Assembly: GCA_963575745.1 (NCBI GenBank)
Contig: CAUYUJ010007469.1
Span: forward strand, 61,716-125,715
DNA length: 64,000 bases
Direction of reading: 5' to 3'
Origin: Prorocentrum cordatum
Taxonomy: Eukaryota; Sar; Dinophyceae; Prorocentrales; Prorocentraceae
The translations under genes and the position numbers were made by a program. Below are positions 4,290-58,902 of the stretch, piece by piece (the stretch's first letter is position 1; every line of letters starts with the position of its first letter). The notes beneath the pieces were generated by a model. It was given only the letters and a program-made list of their open reading frames with translations, was not told the origin of the DNA and did not search any database.

Positions 4290-4303
4290 CCTATCATCAT
4301 CCC

Positions 4304-4388
<85 letters not shown>

Positions 4389-4608
4389 TTCATCTTCATC
4401 TTCATCTTCATCTTCATGTTCATCTTCATCTTCATCATCATCATCATCATAATCATCATCATCACCATCCTCATCAGCATGAGCATCAGCATAAGGATCA
4501 GCATCAGCATCAGCATCATCACCGTCATCATCATATTCACAAGCATAATCATCATCATCGTCCTCGTCATCGGCATCATCATCGTCATCATGTTCTTCAT
4601 CGTCATCC
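4290..4608. repeat. CAT/CTT trinucleotide array
   Basis: Nearly pure (CAT)n grades into CTTCAT and CATCGT variants and ends directly at the spliced-leader relic at 4609. The same repeat type reappears at about 10258-10290 on the far side of LINE-1. Poly-His, poly-Ser and poly-Met frames here are artefacts. Confidence 0.95.
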
Positions 4609-4630
4609 TCCGTAGCAGTTCTGGCTCAAG
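4609..4630 (+). other. Diverged DinoSL sequence heading LINE-1
   Basis: TCCGTAGC-AGTTC-TGGCTCAAG matches the dinoflagellate spliced leader at 19 of 22 positions; only three of the central five bases differ. It begins at the last base of the microsatellite and lies about 155 bp upstream of ORF1 on the same strand. No GT donor follows, so it is not an SL RNA gene. It is best read as a leader copied from a trans-spliced LINE mRNA. Confidence 0.75.
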
Positions 4631-6829: not shown

Positions 6830-8103
6830 CGTGCGTTTTCATCTGGCCCTTCATCTCACTACCTTCTTGTCCGCGCTGTGCGTGCTTACCCCGCTCTCTC
6901 TGACTTCTTTGATGTCGACGCGCGCGCTCCGTTGGACGACGCGGGCCTCTTCGCACGCGTTGCTTCTCTTAACGGTGCTCTCTTGGCTGATGAAGGCATC
7001 GCGATTGAGCAGGCCACCTTATTCCCGAGCATGAGCTGCAGCGGCGGCGTTCGCGTGCGCAGCGTAATCGAGAACGTCGGTGCACGTGGAATTCCAGTGT
7101 CCGACTTGGTAATATTCTTCATGAGCACGCTGGTGTTTCTTGCGCGTCGCTTGAGCACGCAGGACACGAGCTTGCGCGTCATTGGGGTGGAGTGTTTGCT
7201 TCAGTTGAACCCGATCGCTCTCTCTGGGGCGACTTGGAACCGCTCATTCCGAAGGCTTCGGACGTCTACCCTGGCCTGCAGTGGATCCTGGATCAAGGAG
7301 CGTTTGCCGCTCTGGTGAACGCCGCGGGGGATTCTATGCCGGGTGTCGATGGGGTGCCATATAGCAGTTGGAAGGTTCCAGAAGCTCAGGAGAAGCATTG
7401 CCAGTTCTATCGGCATTGCATCCCTCACCTGGATGAACCCCGCCCCGCCGACTTCCATCGGATGCTCATGGTCTTCCCGGCAAAAGGGGGCCGCTTTACT
7501 GATGCTTCGGCGGTGCCCGCTAGAAAGCCATCCAGTACTCGTCCGCCCTCCATGAGTTGCGCGGACTGCAAGTTGGTCACTCTTGTTGTTGCTCGGCCCC
7601 TCTCTCTGCTGTGCCAGCGTTTTATCTTAGACAGTCAGACCCGTGGTGTCTCTGGTCGCTCGATATTGGATAACATCATCGAGCGTAAAAGATATGGGGT
7701 ATTCGCATACCTTGAGATGCAAGATAAAGCAGCACAGCTTTTTGCTAGTTTTCGCGCCGCTGTACTGAGTTTGATGATCTAATGGTTGCTATTTGTCTTT
7801 AGTAAGGTGCGTATTCCGAGGTGGGCCGTGCAATTCCCCTCAAACCTATATGAGGATAACACCGCCCTGGCCCACTTTTGCGGCGCTGTGTTAGCCCAGT
7901 TCTCGGTTGGGCGCGGCGTTCGCCAGGGGTGTCCCGCGTCGATGCTCCTGTTTGCCCTCTCCCTTGGCCCAGTGTGTCGTTGGCTGAATGCCACGAGTCC
8001 CTTAGGTTTCAGGCTTTCAGGATATGCCGACGACTTGAGGTTCTGGCTGGACAATATCTTTACCGATGTTTGCCTCCGCTCCTTGATATGCTCGGTCTTC
8101 TAG
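6830..8103 (+). pseudogene. LINE-1 reverse transcriptase palm, broken
   Basis: An RT entry region (RVASLNGALLADEG...) in one frame leads to a palm that stays in a single frame from 7192 to 8103, with one TAA at 7780-7782. Recognisable blocks are DSMPGVDGVPYSSW; RPPSMSCADCKLVTLVVARPL; QTRGVSGRSILDNI (the G-R-SI-DN block); a weak motif A (QDKAAQLFASF); GRGVRQGCPASMLLFALSL (motif B); and GYADDLRF, with the intact YADD catalytic pair, near 8022-8045. This resembles L1-clade RTs. Confidence 0.85.
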
Positions 8104-10256: not shown

Positions 10257-10430
10257 CAAGCTTCTTCATCGCCATCGTCATCATCACCGCCGTAAGCAGC
10301 AGCAGCGGCCCGTCGTCGACGAAGTCCAGGAGAGGAGCGGCAGCCTCCCGTTGGAACTGCCCTCCCCCTTTACTCCCGCGGGTGCCGTCCCACGGAGAGA
10401 CGAGCTCCTCGCGTCCCGCGCTTTTGCCTC
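10257..10430. other. Microsatellite remnant on the 3' side of LINE-1
   Basis: CTTCTTCATCGCCATCGTCATCATCACC at about 10258-10287 (broken here by GCC) repeats the array seen before 4609. It is followed by CAG-rich sequence. It marks the probable right edge of LINE-1. Confidence 0.6.
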
Positions 10431-12630: not shown

Positions 12631-14559
12631 GGGGCATCTTGGGAGCCTCGGGGGGCACTCCTGGGGCCTCTTTGGAGCCTCCTGGGAGCCTTTTGGATGC
12701 ATCTTGGAGGCCTCCTTGGGCCTTCGGGGGCTTCTCGGGGGCCTCTTTGGCCGTCTTAGGGCATTCCTGGCCCGCCTGACGCCGTCGGAAGCCGTCTCGA
12801 GGGCCTCTCTGGGCCGACTTGGAGCCCTCTTGGGATGCTCCAGGCCAACTTGGAGGCCATCTTGGGCGTCTTCGAGGCCTCTTGGGCTGGGCCGTCTTGG
12901 GGCCCTCTTGGGACCGTCTTCGGGACCTCTTGGGCCGTTCTGGGGCCATCTGGGAAGGCCTCGTGCGCGATCTTGGGGCAACCTTTGGGGGCTCTTGGTC
13001 CGTCACGGGCCGTCGGAAGCACACACCCAACAAAAGTTCATGATTTGGTCACTTTCGGGCCTTCCTGGAGGCCCTCTTGGAGGCCTCTCGGGCCGTCTTG
13101 GAGGCCTCTTGGGGGCCTCTTGAGCCGTCTTGGGCCATCTTGGAGCCCTCTTGGGCCGACTTGGTTGCCTCCTGGCCCGTCGGACGCCGTCGGAAGCCGT
13201 CTTGAGGGCCTCTCTGGGCCGACTTGGGGCCCTCTTGGGGTGCTCCAGGGTTGTCTTGGCGTTCCTGGCTTGTCTGACGCCGTCGGAAGCCGCCTTGGGG
13301 GCCTGTCTAGGTCGTCTTGGGGCCCTCTTGGGGCATATCAGGGGTTCTTAGAGGCCATCTTGGGCGTCTTGGAGGAATCTTGGGCCGTCTTTAGGGCCTC
13401 TTGGGCCGTCATGGGGCCATCTTGGAGGCCTCGTGGGCGATCTTGGGGGCCTCTTGGGCCGTCTAGAGGCGTCGGAATGCCGAACAAGACCAAATGTCCA
13501 AGTCCTTCAACAGCCAACGGACAATCAATGATTTTGGCATCTTCGGGCCCTTCTGGAGGACCTCTTGGAGGCCTCTTGGGCTGTCTTGGACGCCTCTTGG
13601 GGGCCTCTTGGGCCGGCGCATGCCATCTGGAGGCCATCTCAGGCCGTCTTGGGTGCATCTTGGGCCGTCTTGGAGGCAGATTGTGGCCATCTTAGCCGTC
13701 TTGGAGGCCATCTTGGGCGTCTTGGAGGCCTCGTGGGCCGTCTTGGGGCCCTCTTGGGGGCATCATGGGGGCCTCTTGTGCCGTCATGGGGCCATCTTGG
13801 AGACCTCTTGGGCGATCTTGGGGCGATATTGGGTGCCTCTTGGGCCGTTTAGAGGCGTCGGAATGCCGAACTGGACCAAATGCCCAAGTTCTTCAAGAAC
13901 CAACGGATAATCAATGATTTTGGCAACTTCGGGCCCTTCTGGAGGACCTCTCGGAGGCCTCTTGGGCTATCTTGGACGCCTCTTGGGGGCCTCTTGGGCC
14001 GGCGCAGGCCATCTGGAGGCCATTTCAGGCCGTCTTGGGAGCATCTTGGGCCGTCTTGGAGGCATATTGTGGCCATCTTAGCCGGCTTGGAGGCCATATT
14101 GGGCGTCTTGGAGGCCTCGTGGGCCGTCTTGGGGCCCTCTTGGGGGCATCGTGGGGGCCTCTTGTGCCGTCATGGGGCCATCTTGGAGACCTCTTGGGCG
14201 ATCTTGGGGCGATATTGGGTGCCTCTTGGGCCGTCGGGCGGCCGAAAAGGCGAACATGCTAGAATCCTTCAAAAACCTATGCAAAATCAATGATGTTTGG
14301 CCTCTTCGGGCCTTCCTGGGGGACCTCTTGGAGGCTTCTTGGGCTGTCGTGGAGACCTCTTGGGCCGTCATGCTCTTGGGCCGTCTTGGGCCATCTTGAG
14401 GCTATCTTAGGCCGTCTTGGGTGCATCTTGGGCAGTCTTGGAGGCATGTTGGGGCCATCTTAGACGTCCTGGAGGCCATCTTGCCCGTCTTGGGCGATCT
14501 TGGAGGCCATCTGGGGCCGTCTTGGAGCTGTCTGGAGCAGGAAAACCCTTTGGAACCGG

Positions 14560-14790
14560 GTCTGGAAGATCTTTCCGGGAACCCGGCGGGACGGGCCGAA
14601 GCCCCAGGGGCACCCCTGCGATGACTCGACAGGGGGCGGCGGATCGAAGACGCCTACGGCGAATCACCGCCGCCCCCTGCCTTTATGGAAGCGCCTATGT
14701 GGCCGAACGTTGAGGCCAGACCTGCCAAGCTATCGGACCATGTGTTCCCCGAATCGGTTTGGAAAGCCTTCGGGGAACACGTGGGCATCT
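14560..14790 (+). repeat. Module with conserved hairpin inside the satellite (copy 1)
   Basis: The module has a CGGCGGGACGGGCCGAAG segment and a hairpin of arms AGGGGGCGGCGG and CCGCCGCCCCCT around a 24-nt loop. Next come CTATGTGGCCGAACGTTGAG and a segment ending GGAACACGTGGGCATCTT. Further copies lie at about 15655-15935, 18055-18320 and 18890-19150, with a diverged relative near 12340-12470. The last three copies add TTCTTTTGGAAAAAGAACC. Confidence 0.85.
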
Positions 14791-17609
14791 TGAAGGTCAT
14801 CTCGGCCGTCTGGAGGCCATTTTGACCCTTTCGGGCCTTCTTGGGGGATGTCTTGGAGGGCTCTTGGGCCGTCTTGGAGGCCTCTTGCGCCGTATTGGGG
14901 GCCTCTTGGGGCCGGCTTGGGCCTCTTGGGTGCATCTTTGGGGGCCCTTGGGCCGTCTCGGGCCGTCGGAAGGCAGAAAAGAAGCAAATGCAAACATCTT
15001 TCAAAAACCAAAGGAAAACAACTGATTCTGGCATCTTTGAGCCCTCCTGGGGGCCCTCTTGGAGGTCTCTTGGGTCGTCTTGGGCCAGCTTCGAGCCAAC
15101 TTCGGCCATCTTGGTGGGCTCCTGGCCCGTCTGAAGCCGTCGGAAGCCGTTTGGGGGGCCTTTCTGGGCCGACTTGGGGCCCTCTTGGGGTGCTCCAGGG
15201 CCGTCTTGGAAGCCATCTTGGGCGTCTTGGAGGCCTCTTGGGTCGTCATTGTGCCCGCATGGGGCCGTCTTGGGGGCCTCTTGGACAGTTCCGAGGCCAT
15301 CTTGGAGGCCTCTTGGGCGCTGTGGGGGCGATCTTGGGGGCCTTTTGGGCCGTCTGGGGTCGTCGGAAAGCCGAGGAGAAGCGAATGCGAAACTCTTTTA
15401 AAAAAACCTAAGGGAAATCAGCGATTTTGGCATCTTCGGGCCCTCCTGGAGGACCTCTTGGAGGCCTCTTAGGCCGTCTTGTGCCTTCTTGGAGGCTTCT
15501 TGGGCGAACTTGCAGGTATCTTGGACCCTCTTGGGCCGTCCGGGAGGCCATCTTGGACCATCGTGGGCGAGCTTGAGAGCCATCTTGGCCGTCTTGGAGG
15601 CCATCTTGAGCCGTCTTGGAGAATTTTTTGCGGACGTTGAGGTCGTTTCGGGTCGTGGGCAATCCTTCCGGGACCCCGGCGGGACGGGCCGAAGCCCTAG
15701 GGGGAGTTCTTTTGCGAAAAGAACCCGAACCAAAACCGAAATAGTCTAGCACGCCAGGCACCCCTGCGATGAATCGACAGGGGGCGGCGGATCGAAGACG
15801 CCTACAGCGAATCACTGCCGCCCCCTGCCTTTCTGGAAGCGCCTATGTGGCCGAACGTTGAGGCCAGACCTGCCAAGCTATCGGACCATGTGTTCCCCGA
15901 ATCGGTTTGTAAAGCCTTCGGGGAACACGTGGGCATCTTGAAGGTCATCTCGGCCGTCTGGAGGCCATTTTGACCCTGTCGGGCCTTCTTGGAGGACGTC
16001 TTGGAGGGCTCTTGGTCCGTCTTGGAGGCCATCTTGAGCGTCTTGGAGGCCTCTTCGGCCGTCTTGGTGGCCTCTTGGGGCCGTCTTGGGCCTCTTGGAC
16101 GATCTTTGGAGGCACTTGGGCCGTCTCGGGCCGTCGGATGGCCGACAGAAAGTCAATGCCACAATCCTTCAAATACTCATGGGAAATCAATGATTTGGGC
16201 CGTTTCGGGCCTTCCTGGAGGCCCGCTTGGAGGCCTCTTGGGCCGTCTTGGGCCATCTTAGTGCCATTTTCGGCCGTCTTGGTGGGCCTCTGGCCTGTCC
16301 GACGCTGTCGGAAGCCGTTTGGGGGGCCTCTCTGAGCCGACTTGGGGCCCTCTTGGAATGCTCCAGGGCCGTATTGGAGGCCATCTTGGGCGTCCCAAAA
16401 GCCTCCTGAGCCGTCTTGCGGGCCTCTTGGTGCCGTCTTGGGGACCTCTTGGGCCGTTCTGGGGCCATCCTTGGGCGACCTTTGTGAAATCTGTGGGGGC
16501 TCTTGGGCCGTATCGGGCCGTCGGAAAGCCAACACCTAGGGAACATCAGTCCTTTTGGCCTTTTTTCTGGCCTTCCTGGAGGCCATCTTGGAGGCCTCGT
16601 GTGCCGTCTTGGGCCAGCTTCGAGCCAACTTCGGCCATCTTGGTGGGCTCCTGGCCCCTCTGACGCCGTCGGAAGCCGTTTGGGGGGCCTCTCTGAGCCG
16701 ACTTGTGGCCCTATTGGGGTGCTCCAGGGCCGTCTTGGAAGCCATCCTGGGCCGTCTTCGAGGCTTCTTGGGTCGTCTTTGTGCCCTCTTGGGGCCGTCT
16801 TGGGCCTTCTTGGAGGACTTCTTGGAGGGCTCTTGGTCCGTCTTGGAGGCCATCTTGAGCGACTTGGAGGCCTCTTCGGCCGTCTTGGTGGCCTCTTGGG
16901 GCCGTCTTGGGCCTCTTGGGCGATCTTTGGGGGCACTTGGGCCGCCTCGGGCCGTCGGAAGGCCGACAGAAAGTAAATGCCAAAATCCTTCAAATACTCA
17001 TGAGAAATCAATGATTTGGGCCTTTTCGGGCCTTCCTGGAGGCCCGCTTGGAGGCCTCTTGGGCCGTCTTGGGCCATCTTAGTGTCATTTTCGGCCGTCT
17101 TGGTGGGCCCCTGGCCCGTCCGACGCCGTCGGAAGCCGTTTGGGGGGGCTGTCTGGGCCGATTTGGGGCCATCTTGGAATGCCATCTTGGGCGTCTTAAA
17201 AGCCTCCTGGGTCGGCTTGGGGGCCTCTTGGGGCCGTCTTGGTGACCTCTTGGGCCGTTCTGGGGCCATCTTGGAGGCCTCTTGGGCGATCTTTGGGCGA
17301 TCTTTGGGCGCTCTTGGACCGTCTCGGCCTGTCGCACGGCCGTAAAGAAGCAAATGCCAAAATCCTTCAAAAATCTTAGGAAAATCAATGTTGTTGGCCT
17401 TTTTCTAGCCTTCCTGGAGGCCCTCTTGGAGGCCTCGTGTGCCGTCTTGGGCCAGCTTCGAGCCAACTTCGGCCATCTTGGTGGGCTCCTGGCCCCTCTG
17501 ACGCCGTCGGAAGCCGTTTGGGGGGGGGGGGCCTCTCTGCGCCGACTTGGGGCCCTCTTGGGGTGCTCCAGGGCCGTCTTGGAGGCCTTCTTGGGCGTCT
17601 TGGAGGCCT

Positions 17610-19285
17610 CTTGGGTCGTCATTGTGCCCTCTTGGAGCCGTCTTGCGGGCCTCTTGGGCAGTCCTGAGGCCATCTTGGAGGCCTCTTGGGCGCTGTGGGG
17701 TCGATCTTGGGGGCCTTTTGGGCCGTCTTGGGTCGTCGGAAAGTCGAAAAGGAGCAAATGCCAAAATCCTTCAAACACCCAGGGAAAATCAATGTTTTTG
17801 GCCTCTTGAGGCCCTCCTGGAGGACCTCTTGGAGGCCTCTTGGGCCGTCTTGGATGCTTCTTGAGCGAACTGGGAGGTATCCTGGACTCTCTAAGGCCGT
17901 CTTGGAGGCCGTCTTGGACCATCTTGGGCGGACTTGGAGGCCATCTCGGACCATCTTGGAGGCCATCTTGGGCCAACGTGGTCATCTTGGAGGCCATCTT
18001 GAGCCGTCTTGGAGGATTTTTTGTGGACGCTGAGACGGTTTACGCGGCCTTCTGGGACCCTGGCGGGACGGGCCGAAGCGCCAGGGGGAGTTCTTTTGGA
18101 AAAAGAACCAAAACCAAAACCGAGAGGATTTGACACGCCAGGCACCCCTGCGATGAATCGCCGGGGGGCGGCGGATCGAAGACGCCTACGGCGAATCACC
18201 GCCGCCCCCTGCCTTTCTGGAAGCGCCTATGTGGCCGAACGTTGAGGCCAGACCTGCCAAGTTATCGGACCATGTGTTTCCCGAATCGGTTTGGAAAGCC
18301 GTCGGGGAACACGTGGGCATCTTGAAAGTCATCTTGGCCGCCTGGCGGCCATTTTGATCCTTTCGGGCCTTCTTGGAGGACATCTTGGAGGGCTCTTGGG
18401 CCGTCTTGGAGGCCATCTTGAGCGGAGGCCTCTTGGGCCGTCTTGGGGGCCTCTTGGGTCGTCTTTGTGCCCTCTTGGAGCCGTCTTGCGGGCCTCTTGG
18501 GCAGTCCTGAGGCCATCTTGGAGGCCTCTTGGGCGCTGTGGGGGCGGCCTTTTGGGCCGTCTTGGGTCGTCGGAAAGTCGAAAAGGAGCAAATGCCAAAA
18601 TCCTTCAAACACCCAGGGAAAATCAATGATTTTGGCCTCTTGAGGCCCTCCTGGAGGACCTCTTGGAGGCCTCTTGGGCCGTCTTGGATGCTTCTTGAGC
18701 GAACTGGGAGGTATCCTGGACTCTCTAAGGCCGTCTTGGAGGCCGTCTTGGACCATCTTGGGCAGACTTGGAGGCCATCTCGGACCATCTTGGAGGCCAT
18801 CTTGGGCCAACGTGGTCATCTTGGAGGCCATCTTGAGCCGTCTTGGAGGATTTTTTGTGGACGCTGAGGCGGTTTACGCGGCCTTCTGGGACCCTGGCGG
18901 GACGGGCCGAAGCGCCAGGGGGAGTTCTTTTGGAAAAAGAACCAAAACCAAAACCGAGAGGATTTGACACGCCAGGCACCCCTGCGATGAATCGCCGGGG
19001 GGCGGCGGATCGAAGACGCCTACGGCGAATCACCGCCGCCCCCTGCCTTTCTGGAAGCGCCTATGTGGCCGAACGTTGAGGCCAGACCTGCCAAGTTATC
19101 GGACCATGTGTTTCCCGAATCGGTTTGGAAAGCCTTCGGGGAACACGTGGGCATCTTGAAAGTCATCTTGGCCGCCTGGCGGCCATTTTGATCCTTTCGG
19201 GCCTTCTTGGAGGACATCTTGGAGGGCTCTTGGGCCGTCTTGGAGGCCATCTTGAGCGGAGGCCTCTTGGGCCGTCTTGGGGGCC
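17610..19285 (+). repeat. Recent 834-bp tandem duplication
   Basis: Sequence at about 17610-18450 recurs at about 18450-19285. Landmarks such as AAGTCGAAAAGGAG (17741 and 18575) and GATTTGACACG (18127 and 18961) are exactly 834 bp apart, with only scattered substitutions between the copies I compared. Both units contain the anchor and the hairpin module. Confidence 0.85.
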
Positions 19286-20012
19286 TCTTGGGGCCGTCTT
19301 GGGCCTCTTGGGCGATCTTTTGTGTGCACTTGGGCCGTCTCGGGCCGTCGGAAGGCAGACAGAAAGTAAATGCCACAATCCTTCAAATATTCATGGGAAA
19401 TCAATGATTTGGGCCTTTTCGGGCCTTCCTGGAGGCCCGCTTGGAGGCCTCTTGGCCCATCTTAGTGCCATTTTCGGCCGTCGTGGTGGGCCCCTGGCCC
19501 GTCCGACGCCGTCGGAAGCCGTTTGGGGGGCCTCTCTGGGCCGACTTGGGGCCCTCTTGGGGTGCTCCAGGGCCGTCTTGGAGGCCATCTTGGGCGTCTT
19601 AAATGGCCTCATTGGCCGTCTTGGGGGCCTTTTGGGGCCCTTTTGGGTCGTCTTGGGGCCTTCTTGGAGGCCTCTGAGGCCTCTTGGGGCGATCTTGGGG
19701 GCCTCTTGGGCCGTCTTCGATGTTCGGAAACCCGAAAAGGCGAGAAAGCCAAACACCTTGGACAAAAACTAATGTCAATCAGCGATTTTGGCCTCGTGGG
19801 GCCTTCTTGGGAGGCCTCTTCGAAGCCTCTTGGGGCGTCTTGGAGGCATCTTGGGCCCTCTGGAGGCCATCTTTGGCGCCTTGGGGCGATGATTCGGCGA
19901 CTCGAGGCCCTCGATGCCCCCCGGCAGAATTTCTGGAGCAGAGTCACCCCCTCGGTTGGCCCGGACAGGCCCCCGGTTGGCCCGGATAGACCCCCCCCAT
20001 GCACCCCCAGCT

Positions 20013-20384: not shown

Positions 20385-21030
20385 GAGGATGAGGAGGAGG
20401 AAGGAGGAGGAGGAGGAGGAGGAGGAGGAGGAGGAGGAGGAGAGGGAGGAGGAACGAGGAGGAGGGGAGGATGAGGAGGAAGGAGGAAGAGGAGGAGGAG
20501 GAGGAGAAGGAGGAGCGGGAGGAGGGGAGGAGGAAGGAGAGAAAGGGGGGAGGAGGAGGAGGAGGAGGAGGAGGAGGGGAGGGAGGAGGAGGAGGAGGAG
20601 GATGGAGAAGGAATGAGGAGGTGTAACAGTGGGAGGATGAGGGATGAGGAGGAGGAGGAGGAGGAGGAGGAGGAGGAAGAGGAGGAGGAGGAGGAGGAGG
20701 AGGAGGAGGAGGACAGCGTAGAGAGGACCAGGAGAGGCAGATTCAGGCTGATTCAGAGCATGGGGCGAACTCCATCGCATCCCACGAAAACTCATTAAAA
20801 CCATCTGTGCAGCAAGGAGGAAATTGAGGGACAGGAAGGAGGAGGGAATGGGGTGTCTGAGGGGGAGCGAGAGAGGAAGAAGGAGGAGGAGGAGCAGGAG
20901 GAGGACAGCGTAGAAAGGAGCAGGAGAGGCTGATTCAGGGAGTAGAGGGAAGAGGAGGCGTAAGGAAACGGGTGATGGAGAGGGAGCGAGCCCGGGAGGA
21001 GAAGGAGGAGGAGGCGGAGGAGGAGGGGGA
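20385..21030. repeat. GGA-rich array on the 3' side of LINE-2
   Basis: Plus-strand purine array of GAGGAGGAG with islands. An internal repeat (GACAGCGTAGA(G/A)AGGA... to GATTCAGG) occurs near 20713 and 20905. It ends where minus-strand LINE-2 sequence begins, and the same repeat type resumes at 27497. Confidence 0.9.
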
Positions 21031-21087
21031 ACAGAGGAACAGACCGAGCGCACCCAGGTGCGAAGTTCGGGCGATGCCAAACGCATT

Positions 21088-21838
21088 CTAGCCCTGGCCA
21101 TGAGGGGCGCATGCAGCGGCAGGCGCGGCGGCAGCTGAAATTTCTTCCACGGCCATGCCGTGGGTAGCTGCGCGCAGAAATTTGGTGAGGCCATCCCGCC
21201 CAGCGTGGGCGCGAGAAAAATCTCCCTTATCAATCTTGGCGAGGTTCTCTCGCCCTTTCTTGGTAATGCCTGCGCAGGGTGCGGCGAGGTGGCGTGGGTC
21301 CTCAGTGGCCGTCTTACCGCACCCGCGGCAAAAGTACAGGCGGTACTTCTGCATGAAATGAAGCTTATGGCTGGCGTGCAGCTCGCGGCCAGCAATGGTG
21401 ATGGTGCCCTGTACTGGCACTATCTGGTCGCTGGCGGACGGAAGGGGCGGCTGGTGGGTGCACGGCGTGGCACAGGCCTGGCGTACTTTACACTTGTCAG
21501 TGGTGAGCCCGCACCGAGAGCAGAGATACTTGCCCGCTCTGAGCTCAAAGGCGTGCTGGCTCGATTGCATGGCTAGCTGCAGCTTTGTGAGACGCGGGCC
21601 TTTGGCCTGCGAGGGTCGCTCCGCCACCCAGGGGTCGACTGCAAGCGTGTCAGCTAGGGCTCGGCGCGCCCTCCTGCGGATGAGGGTGCACTGGGCATCG
21701 TGCAGGTCTGTGGGAGGGGCCTGTCCTACGAGCGCTGCCTCGTAGGACTGTTGGGCCGCTACCCCTGCCCATGCATCGGCCGTCGCGTTACCGATAGTGT
21801 GAAAGTATCGCACTGGGTCTGAGGCAAGGCCATGACTC
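21088..21838 (-). pseudogene. LINE-2 RNase H end and Cys-rich tail
   Basis: This continues the RNase H domain after a one-base shift near 21838. HGLASDPVRYFHTIGNATADAWAG supplies the last RNase H catalytic Asp (ATAD). A tail of about 200 residues follows, with CSRCGLTTDKCKVRQAC and later YFCRGCGKTATEDPRHLAAPC, which are probable zinc-binding cysteine clusters. It ends at a stop near 21088. The tail may help bind nucleic acid, by analogy with other LINEs. Confidence 0.75.
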
Positions 21839-22775
21839 CTCGCTGTGTGAGGGCACCCAGATCACCGAGAGCTGCCTACTGCCACGTGCGCGAATTGCTT
21901 TTGCAATACGTGCCCACAAATCCTGATTAGCGCCCTCGCGGGGGCGCAAGTGTCGATTCGACCGCCATCCGTCAAATAACGGGAGGTGGTCTGTGATAAA
22001 GCAGAGGTCACCCTCCCAGTGTTCAAGGGCGAGCGCAAAAGCCAGCAGCTCAGCACGAGGCACAGTCTGAAAGGGGCCCTCGAGGCCCGAAATGATGCCT
22101 CCCCAGGGGACCCACTCCCCGAAGAGGCAATTCATAGCGGCACAGGCGGTCCCCACTCGTCGGCGTCGTGGGTCATCACTGTACTGACCTCCAGAGCCGT
22201 CCCCGAAGAGGGTGAGGGTGCCGTCGCTGCTGACGCAGTCCTCCCAATCCCGCCCAACCCAGCTCCACCCGCCGTCCCCTCCCAATGAGGCAAAGAGCGG
22301 GTCCGTGTCAGCGCACGCAGGCAGGCCGCGGAGCCAGCATGCGGGGGCAGCCTCTGCTCCAGCCAGGGCAAAGGGCATGAGGGCGTCAGAATCCGTGTAG
22401 TCCTCGTGGTCGCGGCTGCAGGGGCACAGCCGGACCCTGTGCATGAGCGTCTCGTCGGCCCCACCGCACCTCGGACAGGTTGGAGTAGCGTTGTACCCCG
22501 CCTCGATGAGTCGGCTTCTGGGCCATTGCGCCCCCGCGACCACGCAGAGGTCGAGGGCCGCCTGGTCGTACTGGCCCTTCCTCGTGAACCTCTCCATCTC
22601 GTTGGCAACTATGTGGACGTCTGGGCCCCCCCGTTGCAGTCCTTCTCCATGTGGGTGTTTGGCAGCATCCCTCCAGAGGCTCCTCTCGAGGGACAGGCAG
22701 AACTCGTGGACGAACTCCGCAGGGTCCACGTCATTGCGCTTGTCTTCCCAGTCGGCTTGTCCACTGTGGGGTAGC
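21839..22775 (-). pseudogene. LINE-2 RNase H domain
   Basis: RNase H degrades the RNA strand of the RNA/DNA hybrid made during reverse transcription. Visible catalytic blocks are LTLFGDGSGG (first Asp), VPRAELLAFALALEH (Glu) and LCFITDHLPLFDGW (second Asp), followed by LSVIWVPSHSE. The last Asp is supplied after a shift at 21838. Upstream of the domain, PTCPRCGGADETLMHRVRLC carries the RT C-terminal Cys/His motif. The frame is the same as the RT and is separated from it only by the stop at 22778-22780. Confidence 0.85.
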
Positions 22776-22777: not shown

Positions 22778-25025
22778 CTACTCCTGGGTGTAGGTCTCGC
22801 CTGCCCACGGAGGTCGCGACCACTCCGTTGGCGTCGGGCAGGTCCAGCCTGCGTCCAGGAGGATGGCCTGGATGGCGGAGATGGGCCCTTTGACCTTCCT
22901 CCACTTCTTGCTGCCGTACTTGATCGACTTGTCGTAAATCCGCTTCCACGCCTGCGTGACCCGACTGTGGTGTTCTGGGTGCTGCATCCAGAAGTTGAGC
23001 CACTCGGCGATCGACTGGCGCCTGAGCTCGATCGCGGGGCCCTTCTTCCCCATGACGACGGCGAGGGCTGTAGAGAGACAGCGGCCAGGGACCTTCCCCG
23101 CCGTAGCCTGGACGGCCTGGCGCCTCTGGTCGAGGATGGCCGCTGGGGCGAGGCCCATGATCTGGTGACCGTAGGTCCCCTGTGGCCTGGATCCCGTGCT
23201 CCACAAGCCCTTCGCGATCTTGGCGAGGGAGGCGTGCTTCCTGACCTTGGCGACGATGCGGTGAGTGCGCCTCCTCGCGGTCCTGGCCCTCTTGATTGCC
23301 TTGGCGACAACCCGTCTCTTGGCGCCTCCCACGTCGATGCCAAGGTCGACCGCGCTGTTGGCCACCTTGACGTGGTGGCCCTTCTTCTTGAGATCGTCGT
23401 GCACTGCGTAGGCGATCGTCTGGCTGGAGGCGACGACGGTGGTCTTGGGGGAGACTCGGAGCCCCGCGCCCGTCATACCTTCGAATAGGTCGGCGCCAAC
23501 CCCGATGAGATCCCCGATGACCTGCTTGGTTTGGCCCTCTGCCCTCGCGGCCGTGTCGTCCACGAACGTCCACAGGCCAGCGTGCGTGTGGTTGATGTGG
23601 GCCCTCTGCAGGATCGGCCCCAGGTAGACCTTGGCGAGCTTGCCGCCATTGCAGCTGCCCGCGACTATGGACCTCTCGGCGTCTATGATGTCGCTGACCC
23701 AGCCGTGCATCCGCAAGTGCCTGGGCGCGAGGTAGAGCTGCACCTCCATCGCCACGACAATCGGGGGGAAGTTGACCCCGATCGCGGCGTCGAAGAGGGC
23801 CGCGTAGCAGACCGAGTCGCAGAACTTCTCTACGCCCATCAGCAAGGTCGCGAAAGCAATACCAAAGGTCGCCGCCGTCTCGTCAAGGAGCGCCCTGACT
23901 AGCGCTGCCCTTGAGGCGCTGGAGCCTTTGATGGCGGTGTCCCAGAACTCCACGAGCACCTTGGACCACTCGTCGGTGACACTGGAGCGGACCTTGGCCC
24001 AGGTCTTGGGGATTGTGGGGAGCATGCCCAAGATTCTCTCTTCACCTGCGGGCTTGGGGGCCATGGCCCCAATGGTGGCGCAGAGCTGCTGAGGCCACAG
24101 TCCGTTGGCCTCCACCTGGTTGTAGATCTCGGCGAGCTCCTTGATCCCTTTCTCGGGGAGCCTCTGGATGTCGATGGGGCCGATGTTGTCGACTCCTCTC
24201 GCCTTCTTCGGGTTGGCGGTGCCCACGATGGCCTGTATGTGCTGCGGCTCGATTAACGGGGGGGGGTCCTCCTTCGCGAGTCGCATGGCCTTCTCGTATG
24301 CGCTGATGATCTGCTTGGCGTTGTAGCTGTCGGACGCCCAGATGGAGCGCCAGGTGCCGGCGGAGTGGTTCATGAGCGTGGACGGGTCGCCCACCGTTCT
24401 CTGGGGCTGCTTGTCCTCCAGGCGCGGCGCTTTGGGGTCAGTGACCATGCGGTGCAGGTTGCCTGGTGAGTCCTTCCACGCCTGTTTCGCCCAGTCGAGA
24501 TACAGTTTTCGCGCTCTGTCTGCAGTTTTCGCCATGGCTTTATGGGTCCACTCCATGGTGGTGGCGCTGATGCGGTGCAAGTCAGCCACGTCGCAGTACT
24601 CGAGGGTAACGAGCTGGGTCTTCCACTCTTCGATCTCCTGCGGGTCGGTTTTCCTGCCGAAGAGCTCCTTGGAGAACTCAGGGTTCTCTAGGTCGTCCAG
24701 CTTCTTCATGACTGTCTTGTGGATGTGCTGGCGGGCTTTGGGGTCCTTGCCGTTGGTGGCCAGCGCGGTGCACCTCGCCGCGAGGGTGCTGAGGTGCTGC
24801 CACCATGTAGCCTCGGGGTCCTTGAGGTACGCTCTGCCAGGCGGCGCCTTCATCGTCTGCTTGGTGGTCCTGTGCGCCTCTGCCCTGCCCTGGTACTTGG
24901 CCCTGTCCTCGACGGGGACCGCGTGCGTCTCCAGGAAGGCGAGCTCCAGGGTCGCGACCCACTGCGCGTACTTCGAGTTGATGTTCTCCGCGAGGTTCGG
25001 CGCATGGTTGTGGAAGATGTGTCCT
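22778..25025 (-). pseudogene. LINE-2 reverse transcriptase
   Basis: One open frame of about 750 codons. An N-terminal helical region (NINSKYAQWVATLELAFLET) leads to the RT entry NPKKARGVDNIGPIDIQRLP, then RILGMLPTIPKTWAKVRSSV. Next come the motif A region LLMGVEKFCDSV, the motif B region SIVAGSCNGGKLAKVYLGP, and motif C TFVDDTAARAEG near 23565. Thumb and connection follow, ending in YTQE and a stop. Related dinoflagellate RTs have Asp where this copy has Gly in motif A (M-G-V-E-K-F), which would remove a metal ligand. FVDD is intact. Confidence 0.88.
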
Positions 25026-26110
25026 CTGCCTTGGTGTCGACCTTTGCGCCATCGAACTTCGGGAAGTTGCTGACCTCGTCGGCGGCTGCGTCCCAGTTCT
25101 GCTGGGGGGTGGCGAAGGGGGTGGGGTCCTCCTTGGCCGTCTCGCGGTTGCTGTAGAGGGCGTCGAACTCGTCGCGCAAGTGCTCTGGTAGCCTTTCCCT
25201 CCTGGTTCGCAACGCCTCCGCACGAGCCTTGGACCTTTTGCTGCTCGGGTCCGCGACCTTCTTGGGTCTGGCTCGTGCGGGGAGGGCTTTGGGAACCTTG
25301 GTAGCTTTGTGCTGCCGCGGCTCGGCGGTGCCCGCCGTAATATGGATGCCGCAGTGGGTCTTCCAGGGGACGTCGTAGATGGCCTCGATCCCGACGTGCG
25401 TGGCGATGTCCGCCCGTACGATCGCGTAATCGTACACGGAGCCCGAGCCCTTGTCGCACGTCGCCTCGCAGCTCGGGTCGGTGAGGATGGCGCCGTTCCA
25501 TTGCGTGAGCCACGGCTTGTTGTCCCACCAGTGCGGCTCGTAGTTCCAGTCGGCCAGGATGATCCACGGGTCCATGAGCATGGCCACGAAGGTGGAGATG
25601 GAGACCAGGATGTCCCTGTTCGCGCCTTGGTCCCGTAGGCCAGGGCGCAGGTACGCCGCTAGGGCGACTATGTTGCCGCTCTTGGAGTGGAGGACTGTCG
25701 GCGTGAAGCCCACGAACGGCTGCCTCTTGTGGCGCTTGACGTAGTAGCCCCTGTAGCCCTCGAACGTGGTCGCCGCCGCGTCCCTGCGCGTGAGGATCCA
25801 CTCGCCGCCATGGGTCCCCTTGTCCGATTTGTTGGTGGCCACCGCGGGTGTGGCCGACAGCTTCCAGCCGTCCATGGCGAACTTGCCTATCTGCTCCGTG
25901 ATGCCGTTCGTGTCGACGTGCGTCTCCGCCAGCGCTATGAGGTGGCGCTTGAAGCCTGCGTTGCGACAAAAGTTGGCGGCCTGCGGGCCCCACGCCGTTA
26001 TGTTGTCGAACAGGATCTGGGCCGCCTGCTCGGGCTCCGTGGGTGCACCTGCCGTGGGGAGCCCCCTGGCGCGGTTCCCATGCCCCCTCGGCCGCTGCGG
26101 CCGCTTGCGG
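25026..26110 (-). pseudogene. LINE-2 APE-like endonuclease domain
   Basis: The frame carries ILFDNITAWGPQAANFC, then LIALAETHVD (the QE/ETH motif), YKG-type repeats, DPWIILADWNYEPHWW (the GDFN-equivalent ADWN), SGSVYDYAIVRADI (Y-D-Y/F) and VPWKTHCGIHI (the terminal His motif). This order is typical of apurinic-like endonucleases of LINEs. It is in a different frame from ORF1 (stop at 26111) and from the RT (shift near 25025). Confidence 0.8.
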
Positions 26111-27322
26111 CTACCCCAGCGACGGTGGGGCTCCTGCTGCTGCCGCTGGCGCCATGGTGGCGCCCTTGCCCAAGCCCTTAGCTGCGTGGGCCAGCTCCCT
26201 GGCCCTGGTGGTGGCGGCGATGAGCTCGGCGGCGGCCTTGCGGTCCTCCGCGGAGGGCTCGTCGGCGGCAGGGGCGGCCCCTCCAGGCTGGCGTGGCTCA
26301 GCAGGTGGGGCGGCAGAGCCCCCTGGCGTGCCAGGTTGTTCCTGTCCTCCAGGCGCGGCCGCTGGCTGCTGTTCCTCTGGTGAAGCGGGAGCAGGTTCAG
26401 GATGAGGTTGCTGAGCAGCTGGTTCCTCCCCACACGGCTTCTTCCGCTTCGCTGGGTTGGTGGTGGACTCCTTGGCTTGGCGTAGGAGTTCACGTACTTT
26501 CTCTTGGCCATTGCTGAGCTCGGCCAGGCGCTGGTCGAGCTCTTGCTTCCACTGTTCCATCTGGGCGCGGATGCCCTCGTCGTAGATGGAGAGGTCGTCC
26601 CACATGGAGCTGTCGACCTTGAAGGCTTCCTGAGGTCCCACTGGTGGTGCTCCGCGTGCAGCTCCAGCAAGCTTGGCGCTGTGGTCCGCTTGCGCCTTGG
26701 CGCATGCGTTCTGTGCCTGGACGAGGTCCAGGGCGGCTTGCTCTTGTTTGGCCACGGCGTCGTCGTACCACTGCTTGGCGGCCTCGACGTCGTCGACCGA
26801 CTGCTTGAACTTCTTCTCCCTGTCTGCGAGGACTGACAGCGCCGACTGGAGCACCTGCTCTGCAGTGCGGGCAGGCTGCGGCTTGTCGGGCTGCTGGAGG
26901 GCGTCCTTGAGGTTGCCGACGAGTTCGGCGTGCTTGGTGTCGCTGGGGAGCGTGCTGAGCGTGGCGATGATGGCGTCCCTGGTCGGGGCGACGGCCACTG
27001 GCTGCTCCTTCCACGGCGGTGGCTTGCTGACTCCTGCCCACGCCCCTGTGGGCTGGCGGTGTTCGGCTGGTGATGGGGCCAGCTGCTTGCCACAGTAGAA
27101 GCACTCGGACTTCCCCTTCCACGTCCATCGGTATCGACACTGCTTGCAGACCGTGAACTGGCCAGCGAACCTTGCTGGCGAGCCTCGTCCACCTTCAGGG
27201 CGTGCACGTCGCGGCCTGGTGCCGCCATTGGCGGCAGCTCCTCCGTCAGCAGGGGCGGTCCCTCCACCGCGGTCTGCGGCGGCCATCGTCCCACTGCTTC
27301 CCAGGGAGCTCTGGCGAGCCAC
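26111..27322 (-). CDS. LINE-2 ORF1: zinc-ribbon, coiled-coil protein
   Basis: 403 codons, uninterrupted. After a G/A-rich N-terminus there is a clear four-cysteine ribbon, CKQCRYRWTWKGKSECFYC (residues about 66-84). A long predicted coiled coil follows (LADREKKFKQSVDDVEAAKQ, then KQEQAALDLVQAQNACAKAQ, then QELDQRLAELSNGQEKVREL). A P/A/E-rich tail ends at 26111. ORF1 proteins of LINEs bind the element RNA and multimerise, and this architecture fits. The ATG is about 150 nt downstream of the spliced leader. An alternative upstream ATG at 27468 opens a different frame. Confidence 0.75.
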   Translation of the reverse strand: MARQSSLGSSGTMAAADRGGGTAPADGGAAANGGTRPRRARPEGGRGSPARFAGQFTVCKQCRYRWTWKGKSECFYCGKQLAPSPAEHRQPTGAWAGVSKPPPWKEQPVAVAPTRDAIIATLSTLPSDTKHAELVGNLKDALQQPDKPQPARTAEQVLQSALSVLADREKKFKQSVDDVEAAKQWYDDAVAKQEQAALDLVQAQNACAKAQADHSAKLAGAARGAPPVGPQEAFKVDSSMWDDLSIYDEGIRAQMEQWKQELDQRLAELSNGQEKVRELLRQAKESTTNPAKRKKPCGEEPAAQQPHPEPAPASPEEQQPAAAPGGQEQPGTPGGSAAPPAEPRQPGGAAPAADEPSAEDRKAAAELIAATTRARELAHAAKGLGKGATMAPAAAAGAPPSLG

Positions 27323-27474
27323 GCAAGGGAGGGATATGGACTGGGCGGCAGCTCGCCCCTGAGTGTAGCTGCGGTGGGCGGCAGCTCGCCCGTGGGTGTG
27401 GCTGCAAATACGAAGAGCACTGAAAGCTGTGGGAGCCTACCCCAGATCGGCAGTGAAATGGTCACCATTTTGGC

Positions 27475-27496
27475 CTTGAGCCAAAATGGCTACGGA
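27475..27496 (-). other. Perfect DinoSL sequence at the 5' end of LINE-2
   Basis: Read on the minus strand, all 22 bases match the dinoflagellate spliced leader (T, then CCGTAGCC...GGCTCAAG). It is the first unique sequence after the GGA array and is followed by GCCAAAATGGTGACC, not by a GT donor. It is therefore not an SL RNA gene but a leader on a copied, trans-spliced transcript. Confidence 0.93.
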
Positions 27497-27660
27497 CGGA
27501 GGAGGAGGGGGAGGCGGAGGAGGAGAAGGAAGAGGAGGGGCAAGAGGAGGAGGAGGAGGAGGAGGAGGAATGGGAGGCGGAAGAATGGGAGAAGGAGGAG
27601 GAGGAGGAGGAGGAGGAGGAGGAGGAGGAGGAGGAGGAGGAGGAGGAGGCGGAGGAGCAA
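27497..27660. repeat. GGA array on the 5' side of LINE-2
   Basis: Plus-strand GGAGGAGG array abutting the spliced leader. It continues the repeat type found left of 21030. A further GGAGG stretch lies at 27765-27825. Confidence 0.95.
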
Positions 27661-36003: not shown

Positions 36004-38462
36004 CTAGAGGTCGGAGGGGCGTTGCACACTAGAATGTGCGTTGTGTGATGGTGTCGCCAGGAGGGCGGCAGGGCTCGGAAGCCAGGGTCGTCTTGTACCT
36101 TGCTCGAGGCGTGGCGCTGGCGTCGGCTCTGGTGCTGGTGCTGGTGTCGGCTCTGGTGCTGGTGCTGGTTCAGCTGGCGTCGGCGCTGGCGCTGGGTCTG
36201 TTCCCGCTGGTAGAGGTCCCTCTGGTGTGAACTCGGACTCTGGGACTGGCGCACGGTCCTGGTGGCGGCAATGGTGTTGGTGGCGTGTGTGGTGGTGCCG
36301 CTCGTGAGCTCGGTAAGCTGAGTGTTGGTTGCCTGCTGGGCGTGGGGCTGGGCGTGGGGCTGGGCGTAAGGAAGGGCGTCGGAAAGGGCGTCGGGGTGGG
36401 CGTCGGTTTGGACGTCGGGAAGGGTGTCGGGATGGGCGTGAGGCTGGGCGTCGGGGAGGGCGTCGGGGAGGGATCGGGTTGGGCGTCAGGTTGGGCGCGG
36501 GGCTGGGCATCGGTTTGGGCGTCGGTTCGGGCGTCGGGTTGGGAGTAGGTTTTGTCGTCGGTTCGGGTGTCGGGTTGGGCGTAGGGTTGGGCGCAGGGTT
36601 GGGCGTCGGGTTGGGCGTCGGCGGGGGCGTCGGGCGGCGCGTCGGGAGTGGCGGCGGAGGGAGCGTCGGGAGGGGGTGCGTGAGGGGTGTCGGTGGGAGC
36701 ATCGTCGGGGTCGTCGTTGGAGTGGTCGGCGTCGTCGTCGCGGGTGGCTCCGGCCGTTCCAAAAGCCTTGAAATCGATGTTCTGGTAGGTAGCCTCTGGA
36801 TCCGTGAGGTGGTCCGCGAAATTGAAGTCCTTGGAGGCCTTTAGATTGGGGGTGATGTTTGGAATGAAGTTGGTGTCCTTGGAGGGCTCGAAATTGGGGT
36901 CCATGGAGGTCATGAAATTGAAGTGCTTGCGCGCCTCTGCCGCGAAATTGGAGCCCTTGGAGGCCGCGGAATTGACGTCCTTGGAGGCCGTGAAAGTGAA
37001 GTCCTTGGAGGTCGCAGGCGGGGCGTCGCGGGGGGGCGTCGGGTTGGGCGTCGGGAGGGGCGTCGGGTTGGGCGTCGGGAAGGGCGTCGGAAATGGAGTC
37101 GGGAGGGGCGTCGGGAAGGGCGTCGGGTTGGGGCCGGGGATGGGCGTCAGTTTGGGCGTCGGGAAGGGCATCAAGTTGGGCGTCGGGTAGGGCGTCGGTG
37201 TGGGCGCCGAGAAGGGCGTCGGGAAAGGCGTTGCGCGGGGCGTTGGGTGGGGCGTCGGGTTGGGCGCGGGGCTGGGCGTCGGTTTGGGCGTCGGGTTGGG
37301 CGTCGGTTCGGGGGTCGGGTAGTGCGTCGGGAGTGTCGTCGCGTCGGGCGTTCCTCCACACGGTGGCCTGTACAGCGGTCTGGCCGACGTAGATGCCTTT
37401 GGTCTTTGAGTACTGGATGAACTTGTGAAGCGCTTCGTCTGTTTCGAATTGCACGTGGCCCTGTTGGGCGCCTCCTGGGCCCCAGATGACGCGGCAGGTC
37501 TTGATTTTGCCGAAGATGCTGAAAGTGGCGTGGAGAGCGTGGTTGTCGATGTTGCCGATGCCAGAGACGCATATGCCGTTGGGTGTTGCGGATGTTGATG
37601 CTTCTGCCGAGGCCCCCGTGCGGCGAGCGACTGCCTTGTGGTTGGCGTCTTCGATGGTTCCCTAGCCGCATGTCGTCCGGGTAGGCTACGGTAGGCGTAA
37701 ATGTAGTGGTGGGGACCGTTGGCGCCGTAGTCGAAGCAACTCGCCCTTTGGATGCCGATGGTGTTCCTCCAGTCGCTGGTGATGTCGTCGAGGCCTTTGC
37801 GTGGTGTCGCGGGTGCTGTCGTAGCCCCGTCTGCCTGCTTGCAGTCGTGCGTCTCGTGAGCGTCGTAGGTCCCAGAGTTGTCGCGGTCGTGGCGCTGCAG
37901 CGGTTGTAGCGGTGTGAAGGTGGGGGCGTTCGGCGTAGGGTCGAGCGCGATGGATGCTGCCGTCGGCGCGGGTGTGCCGCCTGTGGTGCTCGTCGTCGTA
38001 ACCAAACCAGTAGTCCCGCTGATACCTCCCATGATGATGCCAGTCATGTCGATGCCGTCCCTGCTGCTCATCGTCGTGGTGCCCGTGCCAATGGTCCCAC
38101 TGACTCTTCCCATGATGATGCCAGTCGTGTCGGTGCCATTTGAGCCGATGCCAATCGCCACGGTACCAGTCGCAATGGTGGTGAAATCGGCATTCTTCGG
38201 CGAAGCCGCCGTTGTTGGAGGGCGGTCCGCTGCTACAGAGTATGATGGCCACGTCCTTTGAGTCCAGTGCGAGGCCTTCCCGGGCCGCGTCGGAAATGCG
38301 CGATCTCGCCGCATATATGGGGTCCCACGCCAGCTGTGGGTTACGATCTTTGTGTCGATGCTGTCGGTCTCCGCGCTGTGTGCGGGTACGTCTTGGCGGG
38401 TCGCCAGTGAACTCGTTCATGATGCGGCTCTGGCTCTTGGTCGCGGGCATCCTCTCCGCCAT
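36004..38462 (-). CDS. RRM-domain protein with Pro/Thr repeat tail (interrupted)
   Basis: The ATG at 38462-38460 has an excellent context (GCCGCCATGG). It opens a frame running [20 protein letters not shown] to a His/Trp/Asp-rich duplicated segment ([30 protein letters not shown]). After a frame change near 37.7 kb there is an RNA-recognition-motif-like domain at about 37655-37345: GICVSGIG (RNP2), [26 protein letters not shown] (RNP1), ending [11 protein letters not shown] long tail from a 12-18 bp repeat follows, broken by SKDFNF-type units (about 37020-36760). The frame changes mean introns, sequencing errors or decay. It is probably nuclear or RNA-associated, and it lies antisense in the first recognised kinase intron. 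Confidence 0.55.
36330..37330. repeat. GGGCGTCGGGTT-type minisatellite
   Basis: Units of GGGCGTCGGGTT and GGGCGTCGGGAA repeat in two blocks (about 36330-36660 and 37020-37330) around a 24-27 bp CCTTGGAGG...AAATTGAAG repeat. On the minus strand all three frames remain open: P-N-P-T-P, D-A-Q-P and R-P-T-R-R. Confidence 0.9.
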
Positions 38463-57012: not shown

Positions 57013-57506
57013 AACAGGCCGCTCAGGAGAAGTATCAGCGTGCGCGGGATGAGAAGGACAGTGCCAAGCCGCACGGCTTGCAGCTCATCCAGGCGCGCAT
57101 CGCAAAAAACGGGGCGGAGAAGGAAGTGGCAGGCCTCCAGGAGGAGGTGCAGCGGCACGGGAAGCAGTTGCCGGAGGCTCGTAAACGCTTGGCAAAGGAA
57201 AAGGAGCAGGCGAAGGCAGCATGTGCGCGAGAGCAGGAGCTCAAGGTGCAGGGTGTTGGAGACGCCTCCCCTGGTTTCCTCGCAGCCATGCAGAAGCAGT
57301 ACGAAAAGGCAGTCGATGGCAGTGGCGTATCCCCGCTGGAGCACCAGCAGCTGTTCGCCCAGTTCGGCAAAGTCATTGCCATCGCGAAGGGCGACGTGCA
57401 AATGGCTCCTACACGTGTGACTCGTGGTGCTGTAATTGGGGGTGGCGGCGGCGACGCAGCAGGAGGTCAAGACAACGGGCCAGAGCTATCCGAACCTGAA
57501 CAATAA
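57013..57506 (+). pseudogene. LINE-3 N-terminal coiled-coil segment
   Basis: AAQEKYQRARDEKDSAKPHG leads into a strong coiled coil (AKNGAEKEVAGLQEEVQRHG, LPEARKRLAKEKEQAKAA). After a less ordered part (YEKAVDGSGVSPLEHQQLFA) the frame ends near 57506. It resembles the coiled-coil region that precedes the endonuclease in related dinoflagellate elements. A stop (TAA) lies just upstream and no ATG fits, consistent with truncation. Confidence 0.65.
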
Positions 57507-57510
57507 TGGC

Positions 57511-58902
57511 TCAAGGCAGGTGGAGTCCCTTCCGATGCCAGCGATGAGCAGAATACGCGGTGGATCGAGGTCTGCGCCAGCCTGGCTGAGCACGCAGCGA
57601 AACGACAGAAGCGTCCCTAACCACGGCGACCGCAAGAAGATGAAGAAGTACGACAAACTCACAGTCTGGGCCTTCAACGGCTCGGGCTGGTGCACCATCA
57701 AGGAGAAGCTGGGCGAGAAGGTGCAGGGAACGTTGCATTGCTACGCAGTGCTGGAGCATTATCTAACCGAGGACCAGTGGCTTGTGGCCACGCAGTGCAT
57801 GAAGGCGTAGGGTTGCCAGCTGGGTGGTGCCGCAGCTGCGTCAACAACGGGGCCAGCAGTTGAGGTGGGCTCGTCTGCGGGGGTTGCATTGGCAGTACCG
57901 AAGCGTGTAGGCATGACCTGCCTGCACGGCCAGGACACGTGGGATATCCCACCGAAAAGGAGCCCAGGACGCACTGCAGCGGCCTGGGTATCGGTGGGCA
58001 AGGGCGTAGTTATCGCGTCGGTGTACCTGTGGACGGCCGAGGGCATGTCGCACCGCAACAGGGAGCTGATCACGCGCATGGTGGGCCAGCTGCAGATGCT
58101 AGGAGTGCCGTGGATCGCGGGCGGTGACTTCCAGGTAGGGCCAGAGATCCCGGCCGAGGTGGAGTGCATGAAGTTGGCGAAGGCGTGCGTGATAGCACCG
58201 CAGGCAGCGCGTGGCACGTGCAGGCGTGCCTATGGCAGCAGCGAGTTCGACAACTTCATCGTGGCCGGCGCGGCCAAGGCGCAGGTGGCAGGCACTCGAG
58301 TGCAGGGGCGGGGGGGGGCACCGACACCGCTCAAGCCAGCGGGGCTATCGATCGAGCCGAAGGTCTTCGAGCGCATGGTCAGGGCGTTGGAAAAGCCGAA
58401 GCCCTTGCAGATATTTCAGATCGGCTGCGCCTCAGCGCCGACGAGGCACGGGCAGGTGGTCAGTTTCAGCTCGCAGACAGCGGCGAACCAGGAGCGGACC
58501 AAGTACAGGCTCAAGTTGGGGAAGGAGGCCTTCGCGATCAGAGGCGCGCAGTGGGCGGGCAATGACCCTCGTGCAGGTGGAGCGGAGGCGCCCGCGTGGA
58601 GGGTCAAACCGCTCAGTTTTGGGGGCGGCGACTTACCGACGCCAGTGTGGCAGGCTATCTGGTGGCGGTGGATTTCGCGCTCCCTGCAGGGCGCGCACCA
58701 GCGGCTGCGCGCAACGACGGAGCAGAGGGACAAGCGCTCGCGCGAGGCGAAGGGGCAGGAGAAGCTGTTCAGGATCAGGGAGCAGCGCGCAAGGCACCTC
58801 ACCACAGACAAGCAAGGAGCGCGGCAAGCACGACGCGAGCTGCTGGTCGCGGCGCCGGAGAAGCAGCGCAGAAGAGAGCGCGCGGCGGGGGTTCTACGCT
58901 GA
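57511..58902 (+). pseudogene. LINE-3 endonuclease domain
   Basis: In one frame: LTVWAFNGSGWCTIKEKLGE (the N-terminal strand, normally ..N-x-x-W), YAVLEHYLTEDQW (the E-H active-site region), a TAG at 57808-57810, then VALAVPKRVG, VIASVYLWTAEGMSHRNREL and VPWIAGGDFQVGPEI (GDF motif), ending SSEFDNFIVAG (D-F/Y). A basic C-terminal part follows, and the frame stops at 58902. The order matches an APE-type endonuclease. A single in-frame stop is the only break inside the domain. Confidence 0.8.

Follow-up and report, generated by a model that had tools for sequence, protein, structure and literature searches.

Retrocopies of host mRNAs that carry the spliced leader (SL) are well described in dinoflagellates (PMC6050394, PMC7245778, PMC12014239, PMC8045281; here and below, papers are cited for the particular passages concerned). 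The mediator of these retrocopies is called unknown in a review that favours LTR elements (PMC6050394), and relict SLs near viral insertions have been linked to LINE activity (PMC10235124). Here we describe a LINE, designated LINE-2, in a stretch of 64,000 nucleotides of the Prorocentrum cordatum contig CAUYUJ010007469.1 (the window). As in the DinoSL-tagged retrogenes of the Slamovits and Keeling model, a genomic DinoSL stands at the 5' end of what was probably a copied mRNA. In contrast to those retrogenes, the copied RNA appears to be that of the retrotransposon itself, and the leader is complete (22 of 22 nt) and accompanied by a candidate target duplication rather than being a truncated CCATTTTGGCTCAAG relict. 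LINE-2 thus shares the exact 5' DinoSL with the tagged retrocopies but lacks their 3' poly(A). No report of a LINE whose own 5' end is the leader was found in the passages of the open-licence PMC literature that were searched.

Several other systems are comparable in part. The trypanosomatid elements L1Tc and ingi are likewise LINEs in hosts with polycistronic transcription and SL trans-splicing. Their common 5' promoter, Pr77, leads to unspliced transcripts, and a 5' HDV-like autocatalytic ribozyme of L1Tc cleaves upstream of +1 (PMC8190864). In the inserted LINE-2 copy, by contrast, the SL comes first, and Rfam gave no ribozyme family at threshold. Elements carrying a restriction-like endonuclease have been described to integrate into repeats such as microsatellites (PMC4640811). 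The two LINEs of the window resemble microsatellite-targeted non-LTR retrotransposons in lying in arrays (one locus per element; CCT on both sides of LINE-2, and ATC upstream of the second element, LINE-1, which probably ends at an ATC-like tract), but LINE-2 carries an AP-like endonuclease. Finally, the dinoRNAV is likewise a selfish element whose RNA bears the dinoSL at its 5' end, and for 6 of 26 endogenous RdRp ORFs there are dinoSLs no more than 500 bp away; unlike LINE-2, it is an RNA virus thought to have been copied in trans and not a retrotransposon (PMC10235124).

The earlier note on this DNA, made from the sequence alone, had placed all 22 bases of the DinoSL on the minus strand at the end of a GGA array, and both statements were borne out. 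TCCGTAGCCATTTTGGCTCAAG at 27496-27475 (minus), the first 22 nt of the element, matches the DinoSL consensus (DCCGTAGCCATTTTGGCTCAAG as printed in PMC7245778) at 22 of 22 positions, and the array delimited by TRF (27498-27657) stops one base from it. This is the sole exact DinoSL copy in the window, with both strands scanned. With up to three mismatches, two window sites are found (27475-27496, minus, and 4610-4630, plus). No match at this threshold occurred in 100 dinucleotide shuffles of the window or in 150 third-order Markov windows, the latter giving 0.013 matches per window at four mismatches; on these nulls a chance origin of the leader at 27475-27496 was rejected. An Rfam scan at the SL site gave nothing at the curated thresholds and weak unrelated matches below them.

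Allowing four mismatches adds a third site, an SL-like 21-mer at 63895-63915 (plus), 85 nt before the window end. Another SL-like site with six mismatches (57495-57515) was dropped as chance (1.7 such sites are expected in one null and 0.87 in the Markov null). Note also that diverged 10-11 nt repeats extend over ~7 kb of the window (12650-19900), with a unit similar to GGCCATCTTGG that resembles the leader core GCCATTTTGG.

The junctions of LINE-2 are marked by a 16-nt direct repeat, TCCCCCTCCTCCTCCG, which occurs exactly twice in the window, at 27512-27497 and 21030-21015 (minus), with identity at 16 of 16 positions. The 5' copy (27497-27512) directly abuts SL nt 1, and the 3' copy (21015-21030) starts where LINE-2 ends, opening a CT-rich stretch 57 nt after the last LINE-2 stop. 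The unit bracketed in this way (27496-21031, 6.47 kb) comprises SL and LINE together, which argues that leader and element were inserted as one unit in a (CCT)n array. The 5' half of this target array (GGA on the plus strand) lies at 27498-27657, and a CT-rich (CCT)n stretch at 20994-21039 forms its 3' part. The 3' end of the element reads CCTCTGT directly before the repeated 16-mer, and there is no poly(A) tail at this junction.

As CCT arrays match one another easily, the repeat was compared with two nulls. Under the loose null, a 16-nt suffix that recurs anywhere in a 130-nt 3' region is present at 47 of 2427 CT-rich positions. Under the strict null, which accepts only matches beginning no more than 3 nt from the 3' junction, a match of at least 16 nt is reached by one of 2431 CT-rich minus-strand positions, the SL junction itself; at 14 nt there are seven, three of them being the SL junction and its two neighbours. 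The direct repeat around SL and LINE-2 therefore looks like a target-site duplication in a low-complexity target. Comparison of the LINE-2 end regions by blastn gave only purine-rich arrays (matches longer than 18 nt) and matches of up to 18 nt; as LTR-like flanking repeats are missing, an LTR element was rejected as the identity of LINE-2.

LINE-2 was read in pieces, and its frames were left unmended (all coordinates of the element are on the minus strand). The SL is followed by a 5' untranslated region of 188 nt (27287-27474) with a 33-nt repeat in 1.9 copies (27342-27405, TRF). ORF1 had been placed within 150 nt of the leader; this holds for the open frame, which begins 38 nt after the SL, and not for the first ATG at 27286, after the 188 nt. 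Counted from this ATG, ORF1 (26111-27286) has a CxxC...CxxC zinc-ribbon-like motif recognised by eye at 27148-27086; its best Pfam match, Unstab_antitox (E=0.0012, below cut-off), was taken as chance. ORF2 contains an AP-endonuclease-like (EEP) domain at 25396-25962 (PF03372, E=1.7e-4; 21.9 bits against a Pfam cut-off of 24.5, in a piece chosen by eye), with the ETH, DWN, D and H residues found by eye. The putative reverse transcriptase core (23552-24208, KKARGVDNIGP ... FVDDT) was also recognised by eye. It has no Pfam match in any scan, the position of the expected aspartate of motif A reads Gly, and a single-sequence structure model of it is poor (pLDDT 39.8). Further downstream are a zf-RVT-like zinc finger (22412-22531, E=0.027, below cut-off), an RNase H domain (21842-22216, PF00075, E=1.9e-4, below the Pfam cut-off) and two cysteine-rich C-terminal motifs (21274-21522, seen by eye, with no Pfam match). 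The element closes with a 3' UTR of 57 nt (21031-21087), in which a CGCAC-CTGG-GTGCG hairpin is predicted at 21062-21049. Both UTRs (188 and 57 nt) are within the lengths reported from A. carterae genes, in which 5' UTRs measure 51-369 and 3' UTRs 42-143 nt (PMC2488372).

Pfam scans of the whole LINE-2 ORFs revealed no LINE domain, and the domain matches come only from pieces picked by eye. RNase H after the reverse transcriptase and a zf-RVT linker are arranged as in I-like LINE groups, a likeness of domain order only and not a clade placement. PDB searches by sequence gave unrelated matches in one case (best E 0.24) and none in the other, and in a search of viral contigs for LINE-2 relatives two stretches fitted a pattern, with neither confirmed. 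The frame is broken near 25000-25080 and near 21800-21840, and an in-frame TAG at 22778-22780 interrupts ORF2; with these three disabling lesions the copy is dead. The endonuclease frame stays open for 879 codons (24850-27489, minus), across ORF1 and into the leader, either as an overlapping frame or by chance in GC-rich DNA.

The second site found with up to three mismatches also belongs to a LINE. A degenerate SL, TCCGTAGCAGTTCTGGCTCAAG (19 of 22 positions; 4609-4630, plus), makes up the first 22 nt of LINE-1 and is separated by a single base from the (ATC)n array that precedes it (4293-4607, TRF). Endonuclease-like motifs, recognised by eye, follow it in sense (two pieces were scanned, with no Pfam match), and after them comes the reverse transcriptase, with VRQGCPASMLLF and YADD motifs at 7894-8040 (plus; RVT_1, E=1.3e-4, 22.2 bits against a Pfam cut-off of 29.6; GCPASMLLF and YADD present). 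A candidate target-site duplication consists of a 5' copy at 4593-4608 and a 3' copy, TTCTTCATCGCCATCG, at 10262-10277 (both plus). It matches at 14 of 16 positions and is weak alone: 39 of 269 positions of the array match equally well, so that this repeat is not significant on its own. Blastn between LINE-1 and LINE-2 found no common run of more than 17 identical nt. Hence, both of the two LINEs recognised in the window begin at a leader or a decayed leader, downstream of a trinucleotide array and in sense. Each has a single leader, and no tandem relict leader was seen in either. LINE-1 also contains two copies of GAGGTTCTCGATGATGGTCGAGG, a sequence with a CTCGA/TCGAG stem inside it, spaced 508 nt apart towards the 3' end of the element (9389 and 9897, plus).

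In the remainder of the window, Pfam scans covered 44 further open frames (120 aa or longer), excluding both LINEs, low-complexity frames and frames within 12.45-20 kb, and none matched a reverse transcriptase or an endonuclease. One Ribosomal_60s match (E=3.1e-4) and one Ion_trans match (E=1.2e-3) were found among them. Since the endonuclease region of LINE-1 escapes Pfam, decayed LINEs elsewhere in the window could be missed. Two blocks of a 12-nt unit similar to TGGGCGTCGGGT, with about 26 copies per block (36337-36646 and 37021-37331), are both part of an open frame of 748 codons (36170-38416, minus).

Exact-leader scans were extended to other public contigs, giving one contig among viral contigs (L001) and two stray contigs among 84,980 prokaryote species genomes (L002 and L003). 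L002 (CAJXDJ010000191.1, 1-60) belongs to a marine bacterial MAG, and at the end of this contig (TCA)n runs directly into a perfect SL; it is probably a chimeric assembly with dinoflagellate DNA. In L003 (JAKUNN010000063.1, 4334-4354, minus), the leader is followed by a GT donor (CTCAAG|GTACGC). This contig is binned as Dehalococcoidia but by eye carries eukaryotic rDNA with an SL RNA gene in the 28S-18S spacer. Judged by its donor, it is a genuine-looking SL RNA gene and served as a control for the window site. L001 (IMGVR_UViG_3300045993_001077, 1936-2913, minus) is an AT-rich contig of the virus collection with two exact DinoSLs; it is giant-virus-like by eye only, and the stretch upstream of both leaders appears, also by eye, to be duplicated. 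A 254-aa ORF that is richer in GC and has cysteine motifs lies a short distance downstream of one of these leaders, and the two together resemble a copy of a host SL mRNA within a viral genome.

Two Symbiodinium genomes, each assumed to be about a gigabase in size, offer a measure of how often such leaders occur. Given this size, the 496 and 244 DinoSL sites in them (Gonzalez-Pech et al., PMC8045281) mean that full leaders are sparse.

The 10 nt directly after the SL of LINE-2 (27465-27474, minus) are a perfect complement of SL nt 8-17, the two arms being separated by 5 nt. A 45-nt piece comprising the SL and the post-SL sequence folds with -18.1 kcal/mol (z -4.0, p about 0.003). A 100-nt piece has a z of -1.6, and the hairpin is one of three inverted repeats of at least 10 nt in 6.7 kb. 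At the other leaders it is weak (L002, p 0.016 to 0.09), different in kind (L001, p 0.04 to 0.23), absent (LINE-1, for which the canonical leader was used in folding) or not notable (the L003 control, p 0.29 to 0.61), and generality is therefore not claimed.

LINE-2 is probably a full-length dinoflagellate LINE insertion whose RNA template already carried the host trans-spliced leader as its first 22 nt. This reading is supported by the exact leader, the exact junctions, the direct repeat, the weakly scored endonuclease and RNase H matches together with the reverse transcriptase motifs, and the same 5' layout in LINE-1. Two further points in its favour are the (TCA)n-SL junction of L002 and the established SL-tagged retrocopies of dinoflagellates. 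An SL-bearing full-length LINE RNA as template had already been proposed in the earlier note, and the 16-nt repeat bracketing the unit and the SL-like start of LINE-1 strengthen this proposal. The note had further suggested a recent insertion or selection on the leader. The SL and the repeat are perfect at 38 of 38 sites, which fits a fairly young copy and makes selection superfluous, but with three lesions the copy is not new. Several observations speak against the proposed template or weaken it. The 3' junction has no poly(A), although a mature SL-bearing mRNA is expected to have one, and a tandem relict leader, reported elsewhere as the mark of repeated recycling, is missing. The outcome of the loose null, the non-significant repeat of LINE-1 and the lack of any Pfam domain score above cut-off count against it as well.

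The insertion could have proceeded as follows. The LINE pre-mRNA would be trans-spliced by the host, gaining the leader, and then be bound by its own proteins. The LINE machinery would nick the (CCT)n array and prime on the nick, and target-primed reverse transcription would then run from the 3' end of the RNA, which would lack poly(A), as far as leader nt 1. Joining of the far end would leave the 16-nt target duplication. New copies, having no upstream promoter, might be transcribed by read-through and trans-spliced again, the acceptor being offered by the leader's own AGs (CCGTAG, CTCAAG) and the upstream array. As the host transcribes gene arrays together, read-through and trans-splicing at an AG could express such copies. 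In host genes, tandem relict leaders build up (PMC3229502), and use of the leader's internal TAG in every round should make them accumulate in the LINEs as well. That neither LINE has one would mean that the AG of CTCAAG is used, or that the source has another acceptor, or that these are first-generation copies. Reliance of LINE-2 on trans-splicing in every generation is a plausible proposal.

Alternatively, the leader could be the element's own DNA, captured once by an ancestor and then transcribed and inherited as element sequence without trans-splicing in each round. The single leader of each LINE, with no tandem relict, agrees with this. Furthermore, an A. carterae gene has a genomic SL exactly at the trans-splice site, so that an SL message is possible without trans-splicing (PMC2488372), and for the 5' dinoSL of the dinoRNAV genome 'molecular mimicry' has been speculated (PMC10235124). 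However, transcription would have to start exactly at SL nt 1 in every new copy, and LINE-1 and LINE-2, which have no detectable nucleotide similarity, would both have to have captured the leader. We consider such an ancestral capture unlikely.

Similarly doubtful is that the LINE-2 mRNA was a passenger, trans-spliced like an abundant host mRNA and retroposed in trans by another retroelement, i.e., that the locus is a processed pseudogene of a LINE. Host SL retrocopies are indeed very common (over 20% of genes; PMC11453091), and a copy with three disabling lesions would suit such an origin. Nevertheless, the missing poly(A) and the short 3' UTR with its predicted hairpin would fit recognition by the element's own reverse transcriptase better. 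A 16-nt target duplication, moreover, is typical of LINE endonuclease insertion, although this would hold also if another LINE had acted.

It is very improbable that SL and LINE-2 are independent, a leader fragment or an SL retrocopy adjoining a LINE by chance. SL relicts are common in dinoflagellate genomes, and CCT repeats match easily, as the loose null illustrates, but the repeated 16-mer brackets SL and LINE-2 as one unit, and the order array-SL-LINE in sense occurs twice in 64 kb. Hardly credible, lastly, is an SL RNA gene at the window site, despite the exact 22-nt leader and a following GC, a donor that dinoflagellate introns can use (PMC7789003): the dinucleotide after CTCAAG is not GT, as the earlier note rightly held in dismissing such a gene and in contrast to CTCAAG|GT in L003, the exact copy is single, Rfam has nothing at threshold, and the 16-mer lies directly upstream.

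For the trans-spliced template preferred here, LINE-1 and LINE-2 can be read jointly, and this wider reading is tentative, a possibility on which we would not insist. Several dinoflagellate LINE families may have given up the internal promoter required by other LINEs and depend on read-through transcription, with SL trans-splicing making the 5' end. The copied leader would carry the acceptor AGs and the trinucleotide, often pyrimidine-rich, arrays would supply the tract, so that every insertion would be expression-ready. The ten leader-complementary bases of LINE-2 may guide trans-splicing, and the SL-tagged retrogenes of the host would be accounted for by this machinery as well. The position of a leader inside the LINE's own candidate target duplication provides anatomical evidence for the ability of LINE-type insertion to copy an SL-bearing RNA to its first base. 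If dinoflagellate LINEs routinely begin at the SL, trans-splicing would be their solution to the promoter problem of retrotransposons, whereas the trypanosomatid elements take the opposite, unspliced route.
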